Translations under genes and position numbers: made by a program
Assembly (NCBI RefSeq): GCF_002159535.1
Contig: NZ_NFIU01000003.1
Location: 62,001-126,000 of the forward strand
DNA: 64,000 nt
Origin: Olsenella sp. An290
Lineage (GTDB): Bacteria > Actinomycetota > Coriobacteriia > Coriobacteriales > Atopobiaceae
Direction of reading: 5' to 3'
Notes under the pieces: model-generated
The model's database searches: none
Told to the model about the DNA's origin: nothing
Seen by the model: the letters and a program-made list of their open reading frames with translations, nothing else
Shown here: piece after piece, positions 16,381 through 63,805 of the stretch
Layout of the letters: the number at the start of each line of letters is the position of its first letter
Position numbering within the stretch: position 1 is the first letter of the stretch

Positions 16381-16470
16381 GCGCTTAAATCCGTGTGGCG
16401 AATTTACTCACTTCCCAAAAACCGTCCTGCGGATTTACGTTTTGAAAGCAGATTACGTGCGTTAATCAGG
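16381..16470. repeat. Dispersed repeat family D, copy 1 (MITE-like)
   Basis: An AT-richer element contains CGTCCTGCGGAT and ends in GTGCGTTAATC. It matches, in inverted orientation, the element at 24532-24612: both share CGTCCTGCGGAT, TGAAA(G/A)CAGATT and GTGCGTTAATC in the same order and spacing. From 16471 to 16589 I see nothing further. Confidence 0.65.
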
Positions 16471-23293: not shown

Positions 23294-23412
23294 GACGGGC
23301 TCCTTTGCCAGTTGGTGACGGCGCGCCGGTCGGCGCGCGGGCGCGGTTGCAGTCTGCCTATAGTAGTCCTGCCGGGGCACGCCTGTCCCGGCGCGACGCA
23401 AGGGGGCATCAA

Positions 23413-24267
23413 ATGGAAACCATCGGGTGTGACGCCGCGGGCGAGATGAGCCCCGCCACGGGCGAGAAGATCGACGCGACGCCGCTCTTCCAGATTCACG
23501 ACGCGAGCGTGGTGCGCGGCGGCAAGACCATCCTGCACGTGGCCGACTTCACGCTCTCCGAGGGCGAGCACGTGGCCCTTCTCGGCCCCAACGGCGCGGG
23601 AAAGTCCACGTTCATCCAGCTCCTGACCCGCGAGGTCTTCCCGCTCTGGCGGGAGGACCCCCCGGTGCGCTTCCGCGGCGCCGCGCGCCCGAGGCTCGCC
23701 GACATCAAGCGCGCCCTCGGCATCGTGAGCTCCACGATGCACGACCAGGTGCGCGTTCACCTGCCGGTCATCGACATCGTGGTGGGCGGCCTGTTCGGCA
23801 CGCTCGGCGTTCCCCTGCGCGGCGAGGTCGGAGAGCGCGACCGCGCGCTCGCGCTCTCCGCGCTTGACCGCCTGGGGATCGCCGGGCTTGCCGGACGCGA
23901 CGTGATGACGCTCTCCACGGGGCAGGTGCGCCGCGTGCTCGTGGCGCGCGAGCTCGTGCGCGACCCGCAGGTCCTGATCTTTGACGAGCCCTGCACCGGC
24001 CTTGACCCCGAGGGCATGTACCACGTGCGCAAGACCATGGGGACGCTTGCCGCCGAGGGTCGGTCGGTCGTGCTCGTGACCCACTACCCAGAGGACATCG
24101 TTCCCGCCATCGAGCGCGTGATGCTCATCCGCGACGCCGAGGTGTTTGCCGACGGCCCCAAGCGCGAGGTCCTGACGAGCGGGGTCATGAGCGACCTCTT
24201 TGGCGTGCCGCTCGTGGTGGGGGAGGACGAGGGCTGGTACTCCCTGCGTGGCGCCTACGGCGCGTGA
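23413..24267 (+). CDS. ABC transporter ATP-binding protein, stand-alone
   Basis: The 284-residue ATPase has Walker A GPNGAGKS, a diverged signature LSTGQVRRVLVARELV in place of LSGGQ, Walker B VLIFDEPCTGLDPEG and the switch histidine in VLVTHYPEDI. No permease or binding protein is adjacent, and the C-terminus is short. The family resembles the YlmA/ModF-like soluble ABC proteins, whose partner transporters, if any, are unknown. An AAGGGGGC ribosome site lies before ATG; the gene is divergent from ilvA with a TATAGT -10 between them. Substrate cannot be assigned. Confidence 0.88.
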   Translation: METIGCDAAGEMSPATGEKIDATPLFQIHDASVVRGGKTILHVADFTLSEGEHVALLGPNGAGKSTFIQLLTREVFPLWREDPPVRFRGAARPRLADIKRALGIVSSTMHDQVRVHLPVIDIVVGGLFGTLGVPLRGEVGERDRALALSALDRLGIAGLAGRDVMTLSTGQVRRVLVARELVRDPQVLIFDEPCTGLDPEGMYHVRKTMGTLAAEGRSVVLVTHYPEDIVPAIERVMLIRDAEVFADGPKREVLTSGVMSDLFGVPLVVGEDEGWYSLRGAYGA

Positions 24268-24353: not shown

Positions 24354-24429
24354 GGGGACGTAGCTCAGCTGGGAGAGCGCTGCCTTCGCAAGGCAGAGGC
24401 CGGGGGTTCGAATCCCCTCGTCTCCACCA
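24354..24429 (+). tRNA. tRNA-Ala (anticodon CGC)
   Basis: The acceptor stem GGGGACG/CGTCTCC, D-arm, and T-arm GGGGTTCGAATCCCC are complete, and CCA is encoded. The anticodon loop TTCGCAA gives CGC, reading GCG. Confidence 0.95.
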
Positions 24430-24472: not shown

Positions 24473-24531
24473 GCGTGGCGCCCCGCGCACGGGAGGTTCT
24501 TCTCGCGAGGTTTTCTCGCTGGGCCCTCGGT

Positions 24532-24612
24532 GATTAACGCACAGAATCTGTTTTCACTTCCTATATCCGCAGGACGCTTTTTCGGAAAAGTCGGATTTTG
24601 TGCGCTAATCCG
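24532..24612. repeat. Dispersed repeat family D, copy 2 (MITE-like)
   Basis: An 81-base element is bounded by inverted ends gattaacgcacagaatc and gattttgtgcgctaatc. Its reverse complement aligns with the element at 16381-16470, including CGTCCTGCGGAT. It has no coding capacity. Confidence 0.7.
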
Positions 24613-24675
24613 GGATGCAGGTTGAGGCGGGGTTGCGTCGGGCGCCGAACCGAGGCGGGCCGCGGCGCCGAGGCA

Positions 24676-24844
24676 AGAAGACGCCCCCTGCGGCTCGATA
24701 ATGAACCCACCTCTCAGAAGGTGGGTGTCCCCATCGCGCGTTCCGGCTTCCCCATCATCGGAGGATCCCCGTACTGAACACGAGATATCGGACTCCCTAG
24801 AAACGCTTGTCGGTTCACCCAGTTTGGCCGCAGGGGGACGACAC
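24676..24844 (-). ncRNA. ssrS: Probable 6S RNA (SsrS)
   Basis: On the minus strand a TATAGT -10 box (24855-24850) is followed by an approximately 170-base sequence whose ends pair: CCCCCTGCGGC near the 5' end with GCCGCAGGGGG near the 3' end. Inside are gatcctccgatgatgggg, GAAGCC, and a 3' hairpin acacccacct/aggtgggttc. The order TCCG..GAAGCC..GA.G..GACAC..CACCTT plus hairpin parallels the 3' half of E. coli 6S RNA, which binds and sequesters the housekeeping RNA polymerase holoenzyme. TCTTCTT follows the closing stem. The open frame across it on the minus strand is an artefact. The flanking 24473-24531, 24613-24675 and 24845-25035 contain no gene. Confidence 0.7.
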
Positions 24845-25079
24845 CACCTACTATACGGATGCCGGGCGGAGAAACCAGTCTTGACTTGCCGTGCGGAGCG
24901 CGCAAGAGTAGTAAGAGTGAGCGCCCGCCGCGACCTGGCGCCCGCGCACCCTGCGTCCCGCGCAGTCCGCGCGGCGGGACTGCACGCCTTTTTCATCCCC
25001 CCGCCTCCCCGCACCGAGTGCCCCGTGCTTTCGGCTATTATGTCGTGAGCCCGTGAGGCGCCGACGGAGGGAGAAGTGC

Positions 25080-63648: not shown

Positions 63649-63724
63649 GGATCGTTAGCTCAGCTGGTAGAGCAGGGGACTCTTAATCCCAAGGTCCAGG
63701 GTTCGAACCCCTGACGATCCACCA
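63649..63724 (+). tRNA. tRNA-Lys (anticodon CTT), copy 1
   Basis: The acceptor GGATCGT/ACGATCC, loop CTCTTAA with anticodon CTT reading AAG, and T-arm GGGTTCGAACCCC are complete; CCA is encoded. Confidence 0.95.
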
Positions 63725-63729
63725 TTTTT

Positions 63730-63805
63730 GGATCGTTAGCTCAGCTGGTAGAGCAGGGGACTCTTAATCCCAAGGTCCAGGGTTCGAACCCCTGACGATC
63801 CACCA
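63730..63805 (+). tRNA. tRNA-Lys (anticodon CTT), copy 2
   Basis: Identical in all 76 bases to the preceding tRNA-Lys, separated by only TTTTT. It is a recent tandem duplication or a repeat kept by gene conversion. Confidence 0.95.

Follow-up and report, generated by a model that had tools for sequence, protein, structure and literature searches.

A highly probable single-copy 6S RNA gene in Olsenella and a promoter box tied to it in Coriobacteriales

Here we report that, in a 64,000-nucleotide stretch of DNA from Olsenella sp. An290 (contig NZ_NFIU01000003.1, positions 62,001 to 126,000; hereafter the window), the minus strand at 24678-24844 very probably carries the single-copy 6S RNA gene (ssrS) of this Olsenella-like member of Coriobacteriia. 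6S RNA is a small RNA with which the cell parks its RNA polymerase once growth slows. The mechanism of the Coriobacteriia 6S RNA is ordinary as far as it can be predicted, and the interest lies in the near-universality of the gene and in its gene-specific promoter box. The 6S identity, put forward in the original prediction, is supported by conservation, covariation, reciprocal model searches and invariant 6S motifs.

A scan of a 561-base stretch under lax limits with 4227 Rfam families placed the 6S family RF00013 at 24671-24852 (model positions 1-187, 32.4 bits, E 7.1e-5), which was the only weighty match there. Across the whole 2.15-Mb genome, RF00013 again had its best place at the window locus (E 6.5e-5), followed by a match with E 8.2. 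A default Rfam scan of the window returned tRNAs only and nothing at the 6S place; the standard scan misses the gene because 32.4 bits lies under the RF00013 gathering score of 46.4 bits, a curated reporting threshold and not a biological feature. Of 101 genomes in the window's family, 98 have a single RF00013 locus, which exceeds the cut-off in 2 of them; two of the three genomes without a locus are incomplete assemblies (57% and 69%).

We aligned 25 loci, the window included, with MAFFT (alignment A1). Among the named loci, the nearest by blastn is that of Olsenella sp. An285, whose 6S sequence is 96% identical. Long near-invariant runs (CTGGGTGAACCGAC, AGGGAG, GAAGCYGGAA, CACCCACCT and AGGTGGGTTCA) are separated by variable stretches. 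RNAalifold predicted 36 pairs on A1, 17 of them with two-sided (compensatory) change, compared with 7.4 in shuffles. Pairing was kept in 96.4% of the alignment cells (91.0% in shuffles, 43-54% when slid), and 64 cells were two-sided (15.5 in shuffles, 4-13 when slid). An alignment of Eggerthellaceae and related loci containing no A1 rows (A3) repeated the same architecture on its own, with two-sided change in 19 of 40 pairs. The fold z-score of the single 6S sequence against its own shuffles was -2.5. The locus thus has the long hairpin of a 6S RNA, with a large central bubble and closing and terminal stems, backed by covariation. It is also a stand-alone gene of the expected length of about 160-200 nucleotides with a promoter of its own, being 167 nucleotides long by the covariance model R1 (below), with both ends predicted, and preceded by TATAGT and an upstream box.

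The anatomy is complete: closing stem, bubble, near-invariant pRNA (product RNA) template region, AGGGAG/CACCCACCT, and a hairpin on the 3' side of the bubble. The original prediction had described a minus-strand span of about 170 bases, from 24844 to about 24676, a TATAGT -10 box, an 11-bp closing stem and a 3' hairpin CACCCACCT/AGGTGGG, all of which were found, the stem being perfect. The features are as follows.

24678-24844, minus strand: 6S RNA (ssrS) gene, very probable, about 167-170 nucleotides (full-length RF00013 match, R1 model, orthologues with covariation).
24850-24855, minus strand: -10 box TATAGT, read from the sequence; predicted start at about 24843-24844.
24874-24887, minus strand: conserved upstream box AAGTCAAGACTGGT, at about -43 to -30, found ahead of 6S across Coriobacteriales at fixed spacing.
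24827-24837, minus strand: 5' arm of the closing stem, CCCCCTGCGGC; of the 9 stem pairs counted, 8 show two-sided changes.
24684-24694, minus strand: 3' arm of the closing stem, GCCGCAGGGGG, from sequence and covariation.
24680-24675, minus strand: U-rich stretch after the 3' closing arm.
24809-24825, minus strand: predicted pRNA template (pRNA 5'-GUCGGUUCACCCAGUUU), near-invariant 5' side of the bubble, from the RF00013 alignment and conservation; the template role is putative.
24795-24797, minus strand: GGG of AGGGAG, paired with CCC at 24725-24723 beyond the bubble, invariant in A1 and A3; the RF00013 consensus pairs alike.
24705-24726, minus strand: hairpin ACCCACCT (24726-24719) / AGGTGGGT (24712-24705) on the 3' side of the bubble, able to form in place of the GGUUCA pairing.

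The U-rich stretch may turn the closing stem into the terminator of the gene, and in several relatives the 3' closing arm is followed by clear T runs.

To follow the gene beyond the window's family, we used R1, a covariance model built from the 25 sequences of A1. R1 scores the window at 172.9 bits, a value that is not independent, as the window sequence is among those building the model; independent support comes from the RF00013 score and from reciprocal hits. R1 finds a 6S gene in 182 of 197 genomes of Coriobacteriia, some families scoring much lower, and matches in 44 of the 296 genomes of a phylum sample. In one locus (L131) a second, weaker match lies on the antisense strand of the gene already found. 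Among the named loci, R1 also matches sequences from Caloranaerobacter, Anaerosalibacter, Tissierellia and Oligoflexaceae; three of these other-phylum loci were checked (Caloranaerobacter, Anaerosalibacter and an Oligoflexaceae genome), and RF00013 exceeds its cut-off in them with 61-89 bits. The named loci were gathered by a 6S-motif pattern scan and are not an unbiased survey; therefore these matches show only that both models, R1 and RF00013, capture one and the same RNA family. RF00013 itself was found in 97 of the 296 genomes of the phylum sample, 26 in Coriobacteriia and 71 of 270 outside it by kinship label. Outside the class it is over cut-off in 69 of 270 genomes, and scores of at least 70 bits occur in genomes elsewhere in the phylum. 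Over-cut-off scores outside the class extend up to 122 bits (sample families f24-f27, f35, f39, f41, f44 and others).

The box upstream of the -10 element is tied to the 6S gene in Coriobacteriales. AAGTCAAGACTGGT has a single exact copy in its own genome, and each of the 19 genomes searched in the window's genus has exactly one GTCAAGACT followed by TATANT at 19-24 nucleotides; where coordinates were compared, this copy always sits at the 6S gene. The core GTCAAG(A/T)CT spans roughly -42 to -34 and does not qualify as a canonical -35 element. It stands ahead of 6S in 76 of the 99 distinct named loci whose upstream sequence is long enough; its spacing to the -10 box is 21 nucleotides in 48 of the 57 loci with a recognised -10. 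Elsewhere in 758 kb of the same named loci it occurs once, counting either strand. WGTCAAGACTKG is present in 25 of 41 family genomes, mostly adjoining the 6S locus. The box was not present in three loci shown from another family of Coriobacteriia. The form AAGTCAAGACTGGTWT lies at a fixed distance from the 6S -10 box across Coriobacteriales and is nearly absent elsewhere. Reading TTGACT on the opposite strand of the box as a divergent promoter is disfavoured, since inspection by eye showed no consistent -10 on that side and the flanking gene varies between families.

From the gene, its conserved structure, its RF00013 homology and its conserved promoter, we infer the following mechanism. Transcription of the 6S RNA would begin at its own promoter, run away from wecA and probably stop at the terminator formed by the closing stem. 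The RNA would fold as a long hairpin whose central bubble mimics an open promoter, and upon slowed growth it would bind and sequester the housekeeping sigma-RNA polymerase holoenzyme. During outgrowth, the polymerase would take the bubble as a template, start next to CCGA and copy AAACUGGGUGAACCGAC into a short pRNA, predicted to begin 5'-GUCGGUUCACCC. The E. coli pRNA starts at U44, next to GCCGA; by the RF00013 alignment, CCGAC (24813-24809) falls at what we take to be the corresponding E. coli site. Synthesis of the pRNA would free GGUUCA, the CCCACCU/AGGUGGG hairpin would then form fully, and the polymerase would be released. GGUUCA, the partner strand of the template, shares bases with the AGGUGGG arm of the hairpin. 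When the template was blocked in silico, the 3' hairpin had a probability of 0.98-1.00 in the Atopobiaceae tested, compared with 0.06-0.77 when unblocked, except for one locus (L134) already at 1.00.

Several results weigh against this account. The RF00013 score at the window locus is under the curated 46.4 bits; most Collinsella and Enorma sequences form the 3' hairpin without template blocking in folding predictions; and in one C. aerofaciens sequence the hairpin reaches only 0.57 with the template blocked. Because of these Collinsella, Enorma and C. aerofaciens foldings, the switch is not uniform in silico; a template/hairpin switch in Coriobacteriia 6S RNA is plausible from the predicted folds. 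As for the score, the covariance search suggested with the original prediction fell short of the cut-off but returned a full-length match at the best place in the genome. Because the cut-off misses nearly the whole family while conservation, covariation, reciprocal searches and motifs agree, the sub-threshold score is a failure of the cut-off.

Compared with known 6S/SsrS RNA (RF00013), the locus shares the full-length structure, closing stem, bubble, AGGGAG/CACCCACCT and GGUUCA pairings and the length of about 170 nucleotides. It differs in being diverged, under cut-off in nearly all family genomes, in the G-starting pRNA predicted at the window locus, and in the gene-specific promoter box in Coriobacteriales. 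An alternative is an RNA of the Ms1 type known from mycobacteria and Streptomyces, which resembles 6S RNA in structure but binds the core RNA polymerase that lacks the primary sigma factor. Ms1 is likewise an RNA polymerase-binding RNA of the same phylum, with a 6S-like fold and described as structurally related to 6S RNA (PMC9130861). We consider this reading improbable, since the locus matches RF00013 at full length with a bubble that keeps the 6S motifs, R1 finds 6S RNA of other phyla, and no Ms1 family is among the Rfam matches up to E 10; the Ms1 candidates in Rfam reportedly come from close relatives of mycobacteria only (PMC9130861). Collinsella-1 RNA (RF01700), also a candidate structured RNA from gut Actinobacteria (PMC2864571), is a different RNA and does not appear in the Rfam results for the locus, even at E values up to 10.

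In the window, wecA (from 25053) and the 6S gene point away from each other; tRNA-Ala (24354-24429) and an open reading frame for an ABC ATPase (23305-24267) run towards the 6S gene. A role in cis, as leader or attenuator of an adjacent gene, would be compatible with Enorma and C. aerofaciens, where wecA lies about 170-230 nucleotides downstream of 6S in the same direction. However, the genes downstream of 6S lie on the opposite strand, and wecA is divergent, both in the window and in nearly all of the Atopobiaceae loci checked; the Eggerthellaceae 6S loci gave no wecA match. As the neighbours vary between families while the RNA stays, the 6S RNA does not act as leader to a fixed gene, and we hold this explanation to be very improbable. 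Least credible of all is a chance resemblance with no gene, which the sub-threshold Rfam score would allow and which class-wide conservation, compensatory changes and one copy per genome already refute.

A coding reading through the open reading frames at 24701-25048 (plus strand) and 24714-24905 (minus strand) was rejected, the region varying among relatives by compensatory changes and single-base indels. Synteny of the ygfA type was not seen in the open reading frames around a few loci, inspected by eye only. Nearby, an 80-bp palindromic element (24529-24611; arms GATTAGCGCACA / TGTGCGTTAATC), with a partial copy at about 16412-16468, has 13 matches in its own genome at 72-100% identity and a fold z-score of -4.05; it is an interspersed repeat resembling a repetitive extragenic palindrome or a miniature inverted-repeat transposable element. 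Further along, two identical tRNA-Lys(CTT) genes stand in tandem (63649-63721 and 63730-63802) behind tRNA-His.

6S RNA has been described as widespread except in Actinobacteria (PMC9130861), where it was not yet identified bar one Streptomyces candidate; mycobacteria, corynebacteria and Streptomyces were examined and only Ms1 or the new RNA CoRP was found (PMC11077062). In the literature searched, we found no paper joining "6S RNA" with Coriobacteri- or Eggerthella, an earlier mention in Wehner et al. 2014 being possible, and the main text of one paper joining 6S RNA with Collinsella describes no Collinsella 6S RNA. Because RF00013 scores over the cut-off in other parts of the phylum, databases probably list actinobacterial 6S RNA already, with the literature lagging behind. 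The near-universal 6S gene of Coriobacteriia, together with the over-cut-off matches in the phylum outside the class, corrects the picture of Actinobacteria without 6S RNA, and reveals that common gut bacteria (Olsenella, Collinsella, Adlercreutzia and Gordonibacter) fall into a blind spot of the Rfam cut-off. Tentatively, the Coriobacteriales promoter box may be a dedicated element read by a novel regulator, and the distribution pattern suggests that canonical 6S RNA may have been ancestral in Actinomycetota, kept in Coriobacteriia and other branches and lost in crown actinomycetes using Ms1 or CoRP. The replacement of 6S RNA by Ms1, which this pattern would imply, becomes directly testable.
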